Shown here one piece after another: positions 15,862-61,321 of a DNA stretch of 64,000 bases. The position numbers and the translations under genes are program-made. Source of the stretch: Desulfocarbo indianensis. Its GTDB lineage: Bacteria > Desulfobacterota > Desulfarculia > Desulfarculales > Desulfarculaceae. Each line of letters opens with the position of its first letter. Positions within the stretch are counted from its first letter, which is position 1. The notes beneath the pieces were generated by a model. That model was not told the DNA's origin. It saw only the letters and a program-made list of their open reading frames with translations, and did not search any database. The stretch spans positions 576,726 to 640,725 of the forward strand of contig LBMP01000002.1 in the NCBI GenBank assembly GCA_001184205.1, given 5' to 3'.

Positions 15862-16842
15862 TTAACCTTCCTTCGCTTCCTCGGCGGCGTCGGGATTGGT
15901 TGCCTTGACCAGCGCCAAGAGCCTTTCCCAATCCGCATCAACCCGCTTCTGGATATAGGCTATATCTTCCGGGCCCAAGTGCCTGAAACGCCTTTGGGCC
16001 TTGAAATATTCTTCGACAAGTATCGGCTTCTTTATGTCTTTTGTCAATACGAAACGCCCGTCGATCACCTCGTAGAGAGGGAACATGCGGCACTCCACCA
16101 CCTGGCGGGCGGTCTGCAGGGCCGCCTCGGGCGCGCAGCGCCAGCCGGTGGGGCAGGGGGCGAAAATATGCACATAAGCCGGGCCGGGAACGGTCACCGC
16201 CTTCTTGACCTTGTTCATCAGGTCCAGGTGCCAGGCGGGGCTGGCCGTGGCCACGTAGGGCACGTTGTGGGCCGCGGCGATCATGGGCATGTTCTTCTTC
16301 CAGGTCACCTGGCCCTTGCTCTTCTTGCCCGGAGGGCTGGTGGTGGTCATGGCGCCGTAGGGCGTGGAGCTGGAACGCTGAATGCCCGTGTTCATGTAGG
16401 CTTCGTTGTCCAGGCAGATGTAGGTGAAGTCGTGGCCGCGCTCCAAAGCGCCGCTCAGGGCCTGCAGGCCGATATCGGCGGTGCCGCCGTCGCCGGCGAA
16501 GGCCACCACCTTGGCGCCGTCGTCCTTGATGCGGCCCTTGCGGATAAGCGCCTTGCGGCCGGCCTCCACGCCGCTGGCCACGGCGGCCGCGTTTTCAAAG
16601 GCCACGTGAATCCAGGGGCACTCCCAGGCGGTCTGGGGATAGGGGCTGCTGATGATCTCCATGCAGCCCGTGGCCGAAACCGCGATCAGGCTCTCGCCCA
16701 CCGCCTTGGCCGCCAGGCGCATGGCCAGAACCTCGCCGCAGCCCTGGCAGGCGCGGTGGCCCTTGGAAACCGGCTCGATGGCCGGCATCTTCTTGGCGGT
16801 GATCTTCTCGAAATTCTCGAGTGCTTTGGCTGCTATGTTCAT
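15862..16842 (-). CDS. porB: 2-oxoacid (pyruvate):ferredoxin oxidoreductase beta subunit
   Basis: The 326-residue TPP-binding subunit of the oxygen-sensitive enzyme that decarboxylates pyruvate or a related 2-oxoacid to acyl-CoA with reduction of ferredoxin. Cys of [14 protein letters not shown] and two later cysteines would ligate the [4Fe-4S] cluster, and [18 protein letters not shown] is the TPP/Mg site. The ATG at 16842 overlaps the porA stop by ATGA, which fixes the start. It is the last gene of the porCDAB operon. Pyruvate is the likeliest substrate, but 2-ketoisovalerate is possible. Confidence 0.92.
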
Positions 16843-18014
16843 TCCTTCACCCCCCACATCTCGCAGGCCATCTGCTGGCCGGCGGATTGGGCCTCCATGG
16901 TCTTCTTCACCATGCCGGCGAAGTCGGCCCGGGTAACGTCACGGCCTCCCAGGCCGGCCACGAAGTTGGAGACGTACATCTGCTTGCCGCGGTCGAACAG
17001 GAGCGATTTGAGCTCCGTGGCCACCGGCCCGGAGGCCGAGCCGGGCTGCAGGGCCCGGTCCATGACCACCAGGCTCTTGGCGCCCTTGACAGCCGCCAGG
17101 AAATCGTCGGCCGGGAAGGGCCGCCACAAGCGGATGCGAACCTGGCCCACCTTGAGGCCGTCGGCCCGCATCTGGTCCACCGCGCTCATGCAGGTCTCGC
17201 CCAAAGAACCCATGGTGACCAGGAGTATCTCGGCGTCGTCGGCCTTATAGGTCTCGATGGGGTTGTATTGGCGGCCGAACTGCTTGGCGAAGCCGTCCCA
17301 ATGCTCCTTGATGACCCCATAGGATTCCTCCAGGGCCACCTGGCAGGCCTTTTTGGCTTCGGTGTATATCTCGGGCACGCCCACCAGGCCCATGCTGATG
17401 GGATTGGCGATATCCAGCTTCTGCTGGGGCGCGAAGGGCGGCAGATAGGCGTCGACTTCCTTTTGATCGGGCATGTCGATGGGCTCTATCACGTGGGTGA
17501 GCACGAAGCCGTCCAGATTGACCGCCACCGGCAGGGTGACCCTTTTATCCTCGGCGATCTTGAAGGCGGCGATGGTCAAATCCAGCACTTCCTGGCCGTT
17601 TTCCGCGAAATACTGAATCCAGTTGATGTCGCGCTCGGCCATGATGTCGCTGTGGTCGTTCCAGATGCTGATGGGACCGGAAAGCGACCGGTTGGCCACC
17701 GCCATGACGATGGGCAGCCTGAGCGAGCTGGCGATGAACAGTATCTCGTGCATCAGGGCCAGGCCCTGGGCGGCGCTGGATGTGAAGGTGCGCGCGCCGG
17801 CCGCCGAGGAGCCCACGCAGGCGCTCATGGCGGTGTGCTCGCTCTCCACCGGCACGAATTCGGCGTCCAGATGGCCGTCGGCCACCAGCTCCGACAGATG
17901 CTCCACGATGTGGGTCTGCGGGGTGATGGGGTAGGCGGCGATTACGTCCACGTTGGCAAGTTTCACGGCCTCGGAACAGGCCAGCGAAACCTCAAGACCC
18001 ACACGCTGGCCCAT
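16839..18014 (-). CDS. porA: 2-oxoacid (pyruvate):ferredoxin oxidoreductase alpha subunit
   Basis: A 391-residue subunit with the TPP pyrimidine-binding N-terminal domain: [17 protein letters not shown] at about residues 33-49, [20 protein letters not shown], and the transketolase C-terminal region with [15 protein letters not shown]. It overlaps porD by 23 bases and porB by 4, typical of tight cotranslation of the four-subunit enzyme. Its domains match archaeal and bacterial alpha subunits in length. Confidence 0.93.
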
Positions 18015-18321
18015 ACTTGTCCTCCTCTTTTTCTTCCTGCCAGGAAATGGCGTCCTTGGGGCACTCCACTATGCAGATGCCGCAGCCTTTGCAGTAGAAG
18101 CTGTCCCAGTTGTAAAAACCCTCGGCCTTGGGGTCCGGGGCGTAACACATGTCGGGGCACAGGATATAGCACCTGCCGCATTTGATGCAGGCCTCCCGGT
18201 CGGTGACCGGACGCCGGCGGCTGCGCCAATCGCCGGTGTTGAACCTCTTGGAGGTTCCCGGCTCGGTCATGGCGCAGCCCAGGGCCAGGCTTTTCCAAGA
18301 TTGCATGCCACTGTCGGCCAT
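17992..18321 (-). CDS. porD: 2-oxoacid:ferredoxin oxidoreductase delta (ferredoxin-type) subunit
   Basis: A 109-residue protein with two [4Fe-4S] motifs: CIKCGRCYILCPDMC near residue 45 and CKGCGICIVECP near residue 77. It passes electrons from the catalytic cluster to ferredoxin. It sits 3 bases after porC and overlaps porA. A first in-frame ATG at 18321 is used; an ATG at residue 6 or 18 is possible. Confidence 0.93.
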   Translation of the reverse strand: MADSGMQSWKSLALGCAMTEPGTSKRFNTGDWRSRRRPVTDREACIKCGRCYILCPDMCYAPDPKAEGFYNWDSFYCKGCGICIVECPKDAISWQEEKEEDKYGPACGS

Positions 18322-18324
18322 GAT

Positions 18325-18873
18325 CTACTCCTCGATCTGGGTCTCGGTAAAGGCCCTTTCCAGGGATTTAAGGTTTTTGCCGGCGATCTTGCCGAAGCGG
18401 GCGTCCAGGGGTGCCTTCAGGGAATCCAACTCCACCAGGAGCGCGGCCTTGAGCAGGGCTCCCAGCATGGTGGTGTTGGTGATGGGCACGCCCATTTCCT
18501 CTTCGGCGATCTTGGTGGCGTCCACCACCGCGGTGCGGCCGGTATATCCGCATTCGCCCCGCACGGCCTCGATGGTCTTGGAGCTGTTGGCAACCAGGGT
18601 GCCGCCGGGCTTCAAGCCGTCCCGGACGTTGCCGGTGGCCAGGAGAGCCGGGTCCAAAACCACCACGACGTCTGGTTCATAGATTTTTTCGCGCAGGCGG
18701 ATGGGCTCATCCGAGATGCGCAGAAAAGCCTGCAGAGGCGCGCCGCGCCGCTCCGGTCCGAAGGACGGGAAGGCTTGAGCGTATTTTCCCTCCGCGATGG
18801 CGGCTTGCGCCATTAGCTCGCAGGAGGTCACCGCGCCTTGGCCTCCCCGGCCATGGAAGCGAACCTCGATCAT
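18325..18873 (-). CDS. porC: 2-oxoacid:ferredoxin oxidoreductase gamma subunit
   Basis: A 182-residue gamma subunit starting MIEVRFHGRGGQGAVTSCEL, the hallmark glycine-rich start of this family, with FGPERRGAPLQAF further on. GAGGAG lies 8 bases before the ATG. First gene of the porCDAB operon; a clear promoter lies 54-82 bases upstream of the start. Confidence 0.93.
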   Translation of the reverse strand: MIEVRFHGRGGQGAVTSCELMAQAAIAEGKYAQAFPSFGPERRGAPLQAFLRISDEPIRLREKIYEPDVVVVLDPALLATGNVRDGLKPGGTLVANSSKTIEAVRGECGYTGRTAVVDATKIAEEEMGVPITNTTMLGALLKAALLVELDSLKAPLDARFGKIAGKNLKSLERAFTETQIEE

Positions 18874-19269: not shown

Positions 19270-19998
19270 TCAGCGGCGGTCGCCGAACAGGCGCAGGAGG
19301 AGCAGGAACAGGTTGATGAAATCCAGGTAAAGTTGCAGCGCCCCGAAGATGGCCATCTTGCTGACGGTCACCTCGTTGGCCGCCTCCAGCACCATGGCCC
19401 TGAGCTTTTGAGTGTCATAGGCGGTAAGCCCGATGAATACCCCCACGCCCACGATGGAGATGATCCAATCCATCATGGGAGATTGCAGGAAGATGTTGAC
19501 CACCGAGGCCAGGATGACGCCGATGAGCCCCATGAACAGGAAGGAGCCCATTGACGAGAGGTCCTTCTTGGTGGTGGAGGCCCAGATGCTGGTTATGCCG
19601 AAGGTGCCGGCGGTGATGAGAAAGGCCTTGAACACGCTGGCCTGGGTGTACATGAGCAGCACCGGGGCCAGGAAGATGCCGTTCAAGGAGGCGTACAATA
19701 TGAACAGGGCCGAGGCGGTGCCCACCTGGAAGCGCCGGATGCCGGTGCCCAAGGCGATCACCAGGCCGAACTGGCCGAGCAGGACCACCCAGTAGGCCAT
19801 GGTGGGCGCGCCGGTCTGCGGGTTGATAAAAGTGAAAAAGATAGCTTCCGAACTGGTCACCAGCCAGGCGGCCAGGGCCGAGAGACCCAGGCCCACGGCC
19901 ATCCAATTATAGACCCGGCGCATGAAGGCATTGATCTGGGCCAGGGTCTGGTCCGCCGAGTAGGTGCCGTACTGAGGCTGTCTATAGGCTTGATCCAT
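19270..19998 (-). CDS. Bax inhibitor-1/YccA-family membrane protein
   Basis: A 242-residue protein with about seven hydrophobic helices from residue 30 on. The family features NAFMRRVYNWMAVGLGLSAL, then GLTAYDTQKL near residue 190, and a C-terminal FLQLYLDFINLFLLLLRLFG-like helix are visible. Members are inner-membrane proteins linked to protein quality control (YccA binds FtsH) or calcium leak. The ATG at 19998 is chosen over a TTG at 20040; GGAG lies 12 bases upstream. Confidence 0.88.
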   Translation of the reverse strand: MDQAYRQPQYGTYSADQTLAQINAFMRRVYNWMAVGLGLSALAAWLVTSSEAIFFTFINPQTGAPTMAYWVVLLGQFGLVIALGTGIRRFQVGTASALFILYASLNGIFLAPVLLMYTQASVFKAFLITAGTFGITSIWASTTKKDLSSMGSFLFMGLIGVILASVVNIFLQSPMMDWIISIVGVGVFIGLTAYDTQKLRAMVLEAANEVTVSKMAIFGALQLYLDFINLFLLLLRLFGDRR

Positions 19999-20065: not shown

Positions 20066-20374
20066 TCAACTAAAACAGGCGGCGCGCGGCGCTCCCACCC
20101 CGGCCAGATTCAGCCAGCGGAACCGCCAAAAGCCGCCCAGGGTCAGTTGCATGGCCCGTTGGTTCAAGACCAGGCCCGGCCGGTAATAAACCCATACGCC
20201 GTCCACCTCTTGGCGCAGATAGGCCTTGATGATTTTTTCGGGAGGGGACCCCGGCGCCACCTGCGCCGGCGAAGACCCGCATCAGCCCCTGGCCGGCCGC
20301 GGCGCTTCCACGGTGACCGCGCCGCCGCGCTTCTTGATGTATTCACGGGCTTCCGTGCTTATTTCAATCTGCAT
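20066..20374 (-). CDS. Candidate selenoprotein, UGA read through as Sec31
   Basis: A continuous 103-codon frame if one in-frame TGA (20284-20282) is decoded as selenocysteine. It starts MQIEISTEAREYIKKRGG after GGGGAG with 7-base spacing. It reads PARG-U-CGSSPAQVAPG around the UGA, so Sec31 is followed directly by Cys32. It continues with QEVDGVWVYYRPGLVLN and LTLGGFWRFRWLNLAGV to a TGA at 20068-20066. The residues on both sides of the TGA belong to one fold: a HesB-like opening before it and a VDG.W.YY...GFWRF end after it. This matches my recollection of the short CC/Se-motif (seleno)protein family, where the pair is Cys-Cys or Sec-Cys. A SECIS-like hairpin follows 12 bases after the UGA. 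Function unknown; redox or metal handling is plausible. A sequencing error or pseudogene is the alternative. Confidence 0.72.
20251..20269 (-). promoter_or_regulatory. Predicted bacterial SECIS hairpin in the selenoprotein mRNA
   Basis: Twelve bases after the in-frame UGA the minus-strand RNA forms a perfect 7-base stem CCGGCGC / GCGCCGG with apical loop AGGUG. The AGGU element starts 19 bases after the UGA, close to the 17 bases in E. coli fdhF, whose loop AGGUCU also begins with AGGU. This geometry is what SelB needs for UGA recoding. The high GC content raises the chance of hairpins generally. Confidence 0.6.
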
Positions 20375-26814: not shown

Positions 26815-27230
26815 TTAGGGCGATAGTCTCTCGACGAACTCCCAAAGGACGTTTTCTTCGGTCTTGATGAAAAACATCTTTATCATTTCGCCGGTGGGCG
26901 TGGCATTTTCAAGGCTTGGCTTGAGCACATGCACCAGTTCAAGCGCTAATCCGCCCTTGCTCCGCAGCATTATCAACTCGGCCTCGATCTCGTCCAACCC
27001 GAAGAACGAGGCCATGGCCTTGCCGCTCAGGGGCCCCACTTGCCAAAGCTTGTCAAAGCCTAAGAGGTTCTGGAAGAGGAGCGGTGAACGATCAATATCT
27101 TTGCTGGTCAGGGAGGCGTGATCAAGTTTTGTTCTCATGGCGCTCAATTGCCGAGGATTATTACGGCGCATGATTTGGAGTCGCCGCTCATGCAATGGGC
27201 CAAAACAACGCAAGCGCCCGTTGCGCCTGG
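26771..27230. repeat. Diverged direct copy A of the VOC/thiolase-end segment
   Basis: This segment repeats 31858-32450 in the same orientation. It starts around a shared TATCATGCAACCAGTTTGCC and ends in ATGCAATGGGCCAA and beyond, the last codons of the thiolase gene. Copy A has lost about 48 codons inside the VOC gene and a few bases in the thiolase part. The two copies bracket a 4.6 kb segment holding the TonB/tetrapyrrole-methylase cassette. Confidence 0.85.
26815..27138 (-). pseudogene. Truncated VOC-family (glyoxalase-like) gene copy
   Basis: A 107-residue frame nearly identical to the first 80 and last 25 residues of the intact VOC gene at 31902-32348. It lacks the stretch between HVLKPS and TPTGEMIK, about 48 residues, which removes part of the second beta-alpha-beta module and probably a metal ligand. 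Upstream on the same strand lies a decayed copy of the last codons of the thiolase gene. It is a gene relic from a segmental duplication and is unlikely to be active. Confidence 0.75.
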
Positions 27231-27430
27231 ATTATTTCATTTGCTTGTCTGGAGCTGGCCCAGGCAAAGTGAGTCCAAGCGCCCCGCCCCCAGGCCCAGG
27301 GCGAGGGAGGGGATGGAGCCGGGGTTGATGAACAAAAACCCGATCCAGCCCACCCCAAAACCGGCTTTCGGTTTGCGAAGCCATGTGGGTCCGGCGCGCC
27401 GGACCCGTGAAGGCCCGGCGCGCCTGGGGA

Positions 27431-29083
27431 TCAGTATGGTTTGTCGTTGATCAGGGCGTCGCCCACGTAAAGCAGATATTCAAAGGGCAGCCGGCCTTCG
27501 CCTTGCTGCTCCAACACCTGGCCCAGGGTCGAGCGCACGACCCTTTCCTGGTCGGCGTAGCCGGCCTTGATGACCATGCCCACGGGCGTGTCGGGCGGGT
27601 AGTGCTTGCGCAAGGCGTCGATGAACTTCTTGAAGTCGGTGCGCATGGTGAACAGGACCATGGTGGCCTTTTGCCGGGCCATCTTCTCCACCGACCAGCC
27701 CGAGGCCAGCAGCACCGAATGAGAGGTCTTGCCCCCGGTGACGCCCACCCCCAGGGCCGCGTTGGCCGCGTTGAAGCAGCTCATGCCCGGCACCACCTCG
27801 GTGTCGATGTCCTTCAGTTCGGTCAGGCTCCAGTTGCAGGGTCCGAACACCATGGGGTCGCCGCTGTCCAGTTGGGCCACGATCTTGCCCTGGGCGACGG
27901 CCTTGCGCACCATGGCCGCGAATTCGGCCTGTTTCTGGTGATATTGCTCGCAGCTCATGCGCTCGCGGCGTCCGGGCCGTTGGTTGTTTTGCTCGGTTTT
28001 CTTGGGGCATTCGCTGCCATAAAAGGGGAACAGGCGGTGGTAGCCCTCGATGACCTCCTTGCCCTCCAACTCCTTGCCGAACAGATTCTTGAGGCGCTGG
28101 TGGACGAAGATGATGTCCGCCTTTTTAATGACCTCCCGGGCCCGCAGGGTGGCCAGGTCCGGATCGCCGGGCCCCACGCCCACCAGGTAGTATTTGCCCT
28201 TTGCTTGGCTTTTCTTCTCGGCCCGGTATTGGGAGGTGGCCAGGGCCTTGCCCACGTACACAATGGTATTGAAGCTTTTATTGCCGGTCAGCTTCTGCTT
28301 TATGTCGCCCATGGTTCCCAAAACCACTTTTTGCTTTTCGGGAAAGCCAGCCTCGATCACCGCGCCCACCGGGGTGTCGGCCGGGTACACCTTGGCCAGC
28401 CGGTCAAATACCTTGTCCGTGTCGCGGGGCATGAAGATGACCAGGGTGGCTTCCTTATGCTGGGCCAGGCTCTCCAGGGAATCCACCGCGCCCTTTTTGT
28501 CGAAGGGCGCGGTGATTATCACCTCGCCCAGGCGGGCTTGAAGGGCCGCGTTGGCCGCGTTAAAGGCGCTCAGGCCGGGAACCACCTTGGGCTTCAGCTC
28601 CTTCAGGGCCAAGACGGTCCATATGCCGGGGCTGTAAATGGTGGGGTCGCCGCTGGTGGTCATGACCACTTTCTTGCCGTCGGCCACCGCCTTTTTCACC
28701 ATGCTGACGAATTCGGCCTGCTTTTGATGGTATTCCTCGCAGGTCTTGCCGCGGCGCAGCTGTTTCTTTTCCTCGCCCTTGGGGCAGGCCTTACCATAGA
28801 AGGCGAATATGTGGTTATAACCGTCGATCACCTGCTTTTTTTCGAAATCCATCGCCGCGGAGAGCATCTTTTGGACGTTGGGCCTGCAGAATACGATGTC
28901 GGCCTCCTCGATGGCCTTCAATTGGCGCGGCGTCATAAGGTCCATCCCCGCCGGCCCCAGGCCAACCAGTTGGTAACTTCCTCCCGGGGCGGCCGCTTGC
29001 GCCGGGATCATGGTCCCCAAGGCCGCCAGGCAGGCCAGGGCCACAACGGCCAGTAACGATTTCATGCGCAACTTCGGCTTCAT
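27431..29083 (-). CDS. Exported protein with two tandem tetrapyrrole-methylase domains
   Basis: A 550-residue protein. Residues 1-31 form a Sec signal peptide (basic start, hydrophobic core, cleavage after PAQA). Two homologous tetrapyrrole (corrin/porphyrin) methylase domains follow. Domain 1 has YQLVGLGPAGMDLMTPRQL, TSGDPTIYSPG and VPGLSAFNAANAAL. Domain 2 has YYLVGVGPGDPDLATLRAR, LDSGDPMVFGPCNW and VPGMSCFNAANAALG. These are the glycine-rich SAM/tetrapyrrole motifs of the CbiL/CbiF fold. Each domain also has an extra segment, FYGxxCP...C(E)xYHQKQAEF, with two cysteines. GGAGG lies 8 bases before the ATG. It follows the TonB receptor gene by 76 bases under the same B12 riboswitch. SAM is cytoplasmic, so an exported enzyme is odd; a periplasmic corrinoid or porphyrin binding role is an inference. 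Confidence 0.88.
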   Translation of the reverse strand: MKPKLRMKSLLAVVALACLAALGTMIPAQAAAPGGSYQLVGLGPAGMDLMTPRQLKAIEEADIVFCRPNVQKMLSAAMDFEKKQVIDGYNHIFAFYGKACPKGEEKKQLRRGKTCEEYHQKQAEFVSMVKKAVADGKKVVMTTSGDPTIYSPGIWTVLALKELKPKVVPGLSAFNAANAALQARLGEVIITAPFDKKGAVDSLESLAQHKEATLVIFMPRDTDKVFDRLAKVYPADTPVGAVIEAGFPEKQKVVLGTMGDIKQKLTGNKSFNTIVYVGKALATSQYRAEKKSQAKGKYYLVGVGPGDPDLATLRAREVIKKADIIFVHQRLKNLFGKELEGKEVIEGYHRLFPFYGSECPKKTEQNNQRPGRRERMSCEQYHQKQAEFAAMVRKAVAQGKIVAQLDSGDPMVFGPCNWSLTELKDIDTEVVPGMSCFNAANAALGVGVTGGKTSHSVLLASGWSVEKMARQKATMVLFTMRTDFKKFIDALRKHYPPDTPVGMVIKAGYADQERVVRSTLGQVLEQQGEGRLPFEYLLYVGDALINDKPY

Positions 29084-31411: not shown

Positions 31412-31462
31412 TACTATTTAGGCATGCCAGAGCACCGTACCTCGCGGGTAACTCATGGGCTA

Positions 31463-31632
31463 CCAACAAGGCAGGTCTCCTGGCTCTTGGGTATGACCTA
31501 CCGGCCGCGTCTTCCCATGCCCCCGGAAGGGCACAGTGGCTTACTTGCGGCTTTCGTTCCCAAATACAGTGGCGGGACCGCTGCGGCTTCTTACCGCATT
31601 CCCTCTAGGACCGTCTCCGGCCACCTTGTCGG
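31463..31632 (-). promoter_or_regulatory. Cobalamin riboswitch upstream of the TonB receptor
   Basis: The minus-strand RNA has the B12 box AGCCAGGAGACCTGCC (31485-31470), GCGGTCCCGCCACTG, GGGAACGAAAGCCGC and AAGCCACTG in the canonical order. Outer strands ACAAGG and CCTTGT close helix P1. It should shut off the TonB receptor and tetrapyrrole-methylase genes when adenosylcobalamin is abundant. Confidence 0.93.
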
Positions 31633-31653
31633 CATCACTGTAATGTCCTAAGG

Positions 31654-59055: not shown

Positions 59056-59203
59056 CGGGCGAACAGGGAATCCCGTGAAAATCGGGAGCGGGCCCGCCGC
59101 TGTAAACGGGAACCAGGGCCGCGCATGCCACTGGCCGTGAGGCAGGGAAGGGGCGGCCCAAGGGTTGATCCGTAAGCCAGAATAGTTGCCGCCGGTTCGC
59201 CAT
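59056..59203 (+). promoter_or_regulatory. Cobalamin riboswitch 1 (divergent B12 box)
   Basis: Order of conserved elements: GGCGAAC (P1, pairs with GTTCGCC at 59195-59201), AGGGAATCCCGTGAAAATCG, GCCCGCCGCTGTAA, GGGAAC and GCCACTGGCC. The B12 box is AAGCCAGAATAGTTGCC instead of AGCCAGAAGACCTGCC. The aptamer is therefore recognisable, but its box is altered and it may bind less well or other corrinoids. Confidence 0.85.
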
Positions 59204-59696: not shown

Positions 59697-59710
59697 TTCA
59701 TAACGACATA

Positions 59711-59885
59711 ATCGGGAGCGGGCGCCTCGCAGAGGCCCTGAGGGAAGCCGGTGCGAATCCGGCGTGGTCCCGCCGCTGTAACCGGGGACGAAAGCCGCCA
59801 ATAAGCCACTGCCGACTAATGAAGACGGTGGGAAGGCGGCGGCCGTAGGATGATCCGGAAGCCAGAAGACCTGCCCGCCCCTGCA
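59711..59885 (+). promoter_or_regulatory. Cobalamin riboswitch 2
   Basis: Contains AGGGAAGCCGGTGCGAATCC, GGTCCCGCCGCTGTAACCGG, GGACGAAAGCCGCCAATAAG, the GCCACTG element and a canonical B12 box AAGCCAGAAGACCTGCC at 59858-59874. It precedes an intrinsic terminator and the cbiA-like fragment/cbiK unit. Confidence 0.93.
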
Positions 59886-59946
59886 AGCCGCCCGCGCCGG
59901 GTTATGCGCATCGCGGCTGGCCAGGGATCAAGTAAGCTGGGTGCAG

Positions 59947-61064: not shown

Positions 61065-61090
61065 GCGAGGTGAGAGAGAGCGACTAAAAA

Positions 61091-61250
61091 ACGGCAGGCG
61101 CCATAAGCGCTTGATTGGGAATCCCGTGCAAATCGGGAGCGGGCCCGCCGCTGTGACCGGGGACGAAAGCCGTTAGCAAACCACTGGCCCCTGGGGCTGG
61201 GAAGGAACGGCCGGTAGGGAGAGCCGGAAGCCAGAAGACCAACCTGCCAA
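61091..61250 (+). promoter_or_regulatory. Cobalamin riboswitch 3 (B12 box with insertion)
   Basis: P1 strands GGCAGG (61093-61098) and CCTGCC (61243-61248) enclose TGGGAATCCCGTGCAAATCG, GGCCCGCCGCTGTGACCGG, GGACGAAAGCCG, the ACCACTGG element and AAGCCAGAAGACCAACCTGCC, a B12 box with four extra bases. It precedes a strong terminator and the ABC/TonB genes. Confidence 0.88.
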
Positions 61251-61321
61251 AAATTCGCTGGCGCATCCCGAGGAACGGAAGCGCGCCGGTAACGAGTTCT
61301 GAGCGTGTAACGCGGGAGATG

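Follow-up and report, generated by a model that had tools for sequence, protein, structure and literature searches.

Identification of a selenoprotein gene of the CC/Se motif family

The minus-strand gene at 20069–20374 of the window (the whole 64-kb stretch of Desulfocarbo indianensis DNA analyzed here) is almost certainly a genuine selenoprotein gene, and it is a new member of the catalogued, functionally unstudied CC/Se selenoprotein family. In a 2026 review, the family appears among hypothetical selenoproteins, with Moorella thermoacetica as the species of the prediction and no function assigned (Table 1 in PMC13188914), and our literature search found no paper naming both selenoprotein and Desulfarculus. 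The present analysis adds an IscA/SufA-like predicted fold, a second copy in tandem with another selenoprotein gene and a repeated Bax1-I neighbor.

The frame starts with an ATG at 20374 and contains a single internal TGA (20282–20284), followed directly by TGC (Sec31-Cys32). The translation from 20374 to 20066 reads MQIEISTEAREYIKKRGGAVTVEAPRPARG-U-CGSSPAQVAPGSPPEKIIKAYLRQEVDGVWVYYRPGLVLNQRAMQLTLGGFWRFRWLNLAGVGAPRAACFS and ends at a second TGA (20066–20068), giving 102 residues plus the stop. The initial annotation had described a minus-strand frame with one internal TGA and Sec31 beside Cys32, broken up by a standard ORF scan, and both sequence and translation bear this out; the standard ORF list held only a 64-aa GTG fragment (20066–20260) in this frame. 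The gene thus escapes standard ORF calling, and its model is corrected here. The final TGA was followed by no SECIS-like hairpin (best, −1.9 kcal/mol), and the relatives mostly have TAG or TAA at this position; on these grounds UGA appears to be used in both senses, Sec and stop, within this one gene.

A TGA-bridged frame is weak evidence by itself and is not rare: the GC-rich window contained 74 such ATG frames running to 100 codons or more, and a bSECIS-like hairpin accompanied 10 of these. On inspection, the other frames with such hairpins look like frames on the wrong strand or like gene ends with a terminator-like hairpin behind them. What lifts the gene at 20069–20374 above chance is its match to the family HMM, a TGA in the same column in its relatives, the synonymous-recoding tests and covariation. 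The read-through protein scored 68.3 bits against NCBIfam NF041239 (CC/Se motif family (seleno)protein; curated cut-off, 40 bits), with residues 1–92 aligned to positions 1–90 of the 91 in the profile. A Pfam scan of the same protein returned no domain. As in the NF041239 family, the match is nearly full-length, the protein is of similar length, Sec lies at the motif position and a bSECIS lies downstream. The motif itself differs, being CxxU in the family according to PMC13188914, whereas in the Desulfarculaceae proteins it reads G-U-x, lacking that Cys, and in the window copy U-C.

Conservation of the UGA codon

The gene was present in 17 of 63 genomes of the class, all of them among the 20 genomes of Desulfarculaceae, the family to which the window belongs. 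Each of the 19 distinct Sec copies from Desulfarculaceae carried one TGA in the identical column, with flanks that could be aligned on both sides, and all 19 continued through the TGA; no homologue ended there. Because the same TGA occurs in separate genomes, a sequencing error at this codon is very unlikely.

Family members are expected to have either Sec or a Cys at the position of the motif, and homologues with Cys were also found here. The Cys-Cys homologues anticipated by the initial annotation were represented by L062, which has Cys-Cys at the position of Sec31 and scored 49.9 bits against NF041239, above the cut-off. L032 also has Cys-Cys at this site, with a Cys aligned with Sec31, and scored below the cut-off (35.9 bits); L033 has no Cys there. 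The non-Sec homologues grouped together in the tree, apart from the Sec members, although this grouping is tentative on account of long branches. A further family homologue, from another lineage of the phylum (L034:1474–1809, minus strand), has two consecutive UGA codons and is a possible Sec-Sec protein.

A bSECIS hairpin downstream of the UGA codon

A hairpin lies at 20251–20269 on the minus strand, with a 7-bp stem (CCGGCGC/GCGCCGG) and the loop AGGUG, as had been noted from the sequence. It starts 12 nt after the UGA, its loop starts 19 nt after the UGA, and its energy is −13.9 kcal/mol. The published rules for bSECIS elements call for a stem of 4–16 bp, a loop of 3–9 nt with G in one of the first two places, a distance of 16–37 nt from the UGA and an energy of at most −7.5 kcal/mol (PMC13188914), and the hairpin agrees with every one of them. 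An Rfam scan of the window at gathering scores gave no SECIS match.

Plain dinucleotide shuffling of this region gave an unconvincing z of only about −1, and we turned instead to recoding with synonymous codons, under which the protein stays the same. Among 1000 recodings of the same peptide, 1% reached the energy of the hairpin in the window (P = 0.01). Most Desulfarculaceae copies gave similar or stronger results, and across 14 divergent representatives the combined P was about 2e-10, a value to be read with the caveat that related sequences are not fully independent. Under a model with uninterrupted stems, the recodings were not beaten in L057 and L039, and the L027 and L034 homologues showed no strong hairpin. 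In an ungapped alignment of 18 copies, 5 of the 7 base pairs had changed on both sides, 88.9% of the stem cells were paired (versus 35–56% in slid registers), and the second loop base was G in all 18. The non-Sec homologues had no hairpin at the SECIS place; L033 has one elsewhere, 34 nt downstream (−14.6 kcal/mol).

Selenocysteine machinery of the genome

The genome contained selA (605.6 bits), selB (392.9 bits), selD (375.9 bits) and a tRNA-Sec gene (selC; 75.4 bits, anticodon tca), the complete set on which the initial annotation had made its reading depend. SelD is itself a Sec form, with an in-frame UGA in KARAAGUAAKIGPG, and the use of Sec therefore appears to extend to other genes in the genome. 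From the conserved anatomy of the gene, SelB and Sec-tRNA (anticodon UCA) would decode the UGA at codon 31 under the direction of the downstream bSECIS.

The opposite reading is that the gene is a pseudogene, or that translation ends at the TGA, leaving the frame beyond it unused. The abundance of TGA-bridged frames in this GC-rich window speaks for such a reading. However, the TGA, the protein sequence beyond it and, in most cases, the hairpin have been kept in 19 diverged copies, the family model spans the TGA, and the Sec machinery is complete; we consider this reading extremely improbable.

Predicted fold and relation to A-type carriers

An AlphaFold2 model of the protein had a mean pLDDT of 82, with values near 70 in the Sec loop. 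The top ten PDB matches (Foldseek, VIA-align) were all IscA/SufA-type proteins; these matches were moderate (best Foldseek E, 0.0065; TM, about 0.55; Z up to 8.3), and middling Z scores are common. A profile built from the IscA/HesB-family selenoproteins of this genome and of related ones matched the CC/Se family with a probability of 91.6% and an E of 8e-7, bringing the Sec columns together. In E. coli IscA, the residue aligned with the Sec of these selenoproteins is the Cys of SGCSG, its first ligand. The fold is predicted to be IscA/SufA-like (A-type carrier), and Sec31 is predicted to take the place of the first cluster-ligand Cys of the carriers. The "HesB-like" opening mentioned in the initial annotation is supported by both the predicted fold and the profile comparison.

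Direct sequence matches to these proteins were absent from the searches made: neither PF01521 nor the NCBIfam IscA models matched the protein, the NF038090 and TIGR01911 models did not match it, and the family profile gave nothing significant against the sequences of solved structures. The sole PF01521 match in the genome was a TGA-containing gene, just under the Pfam cut-off. The protein resembles the A-type carriers IscA, SufA and ErpA (PF01521) in predicted fold and in where the first ligand Cys is placed. In contrast to their three ligand Cys residues, with a C-terminal CxC, it has Sec31 in mid-chain and a single C-terminal Cys. The IscA/HesB-family selenoproteins (NF038090, IscA_HesB_Se; TIGR01911, HesB_rel_seleno) have a similar predicted fold and a Sec column that can be aligned with that of CC/Se, whereas their UxGP motif and C-terminal Cys cluster are missing from the protein encoded here. 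This protein belongs to the CC/Se family; because it has neither a direct sequence match nor the C-terminal CxC, we did not file it as an A-type carrier, although it may work like one.

The same genome has a second CC/Se family copy (C1:1308474–1308761, corresponding to L063:5975–6262, minus strand). Immediately downstream of it comes an IscA/HesB-family selenoprotein gene (L063:5633–5950, minus strand; NF038090, 92.9 bits), with 22–24 nt between the coding sequences. L063 thus carries a tandem of predicted IscA-like selenoproteins that belong to two different families. Together with the predicted fold, this arrangement gives a concrete clue to the function of the CC/Se family.

A possible carrier function and the cysteines near Sec31

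The family HMM, the complete sel machinery, the conserved TGA, the hairpin, the fold, the profile match and the tandem copy make up the case for a functional selenoprotein with an IscA/SufA fold, in which Sec31 would serve carrier chemistry as a selenolate ligand of an Fe-S cluster or of iron; we take this as the most likely reading and give it about an even chance. The product would be a small protein with the predicted A-type carrier fold. With moderate confidence, the selenolate of Sec31 may bind an Fe-S cluster or an iron ion with the aid of Cys100 near the C-terminus, and the protein could then deliver its cargo to Fe-S enzymes, or repair them, in this presumably anaerobic bacterium. Counted against such a role are the lack of a Pfam domain, the moderate structure match and the pLDDT near 70 in the Sec loop.

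The cysteines bear on this question as well. Sec31 was conserved; the Sec-Cys pair named in the initial annotation was not. The pair was limited to the window copy and the distant L027, and in close relatives Sec is mostly followed by A, G, R, K or S. Apart from this point, the initial observation was correct and its interpretation largely right. A Cys near the C-terminus was nearly invariant in Desulfarculaceae and absent from homologues outside, and both this absence and the reduction of the CxC to one Cys count against the carrier reading.

The main rival explanation is that Sec31 acts in thiol redox chemistry, forming a selenenylsulfide with Cys32 or Cys100 in a reductase-, peroxidase- or sensor-like protein that reuses the IscA fold. 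The adjacent Sec31-Cys32 in the window copy and the near invariance of the C-terminal Cys in Desulfarculaceae fit this explanation, and uncharacterized selenoproteins are mostly thought to be redox proteins (PMC13188914). However, the replacement of Cys32 in the close family argues against it, as does the finding that no thioredoxin-type fold occurred among the structure matches. We regard a redox role as possible, with a probability of something like a third.

Gene neighborhood

A gene for a Bax inhibitor-1 (Bax1-I, PF01027) family membrane protein (19270–19998, minus strand) lies just downstream of the Sec gene, and this order was conserved at 8 loci in four genera. Further downstream are the gamma-delta-alpha-beta genes of a 2-oxoacid:ferredoxin oxidoreductase (15862–18873, minus strand), which came next after Bax1-I at 5 of the 8 loci. 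A strong terminator-like hairpin after the Bax1-I gene separates these genes, which makes co-transcription doubtful; the oxidoreductase genes are probably a separate transcript. A promoter-like match was also present in the interval that separates Bax1-I from the Sec gene.

The three non-Sec homologues adjoin CstA transporter genes. In genome G089, a gene that clustering marks as CstA-like and two genes for ArsA-type ATPases are found upstream of the second Sec copy. CstA carbon-starvation transporter genes were seen near family members both with and without Sec (L080, L081, L082 and L073). Bax1-I and CstA are not Fe-S assembly genes, which counts against the carrier reading; their neighborhoods provide testable partners.

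These recurrent neighbors are membrane proteins, and an IscA/HesB-family selenoprotein gene stands alongside in the same genome. Both facts would suit a carrier or chaperone that handles selenide, persulfide or metal, perhaps tied to the neighboring membrane protein. We judge such a role unlikely, given that no linkage of the CC/Se gene to sel genes was seen and that Cys-Cys homologues exist. Returning to the carrier reading, the CC/Se family could tentatively be placed among the A-type carriers as a divergent branch with Sec for the cluster-ligand Cys, forming with the HesB-like selenoproteins a selenium-based set for iron-sulfur handling in Desulfarculaceae; we hold this wider proposal to be plausible, on less than even terms.

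Other features of the window

Four cobalamin riboswitches were found in the window. Three lie on the plus strand in a span of about 2.2 kb (59068–59184, 59703–59892 and 61079–61261), and the fourth lies on the minus strand (31453–31643). The minus-strand gene at 27191–29083 encodes a protein with a signal-peptide-like start and, as judged by eye, two tetrapyrrole methylase-like repeats, which would be unusual if the protein is exported.
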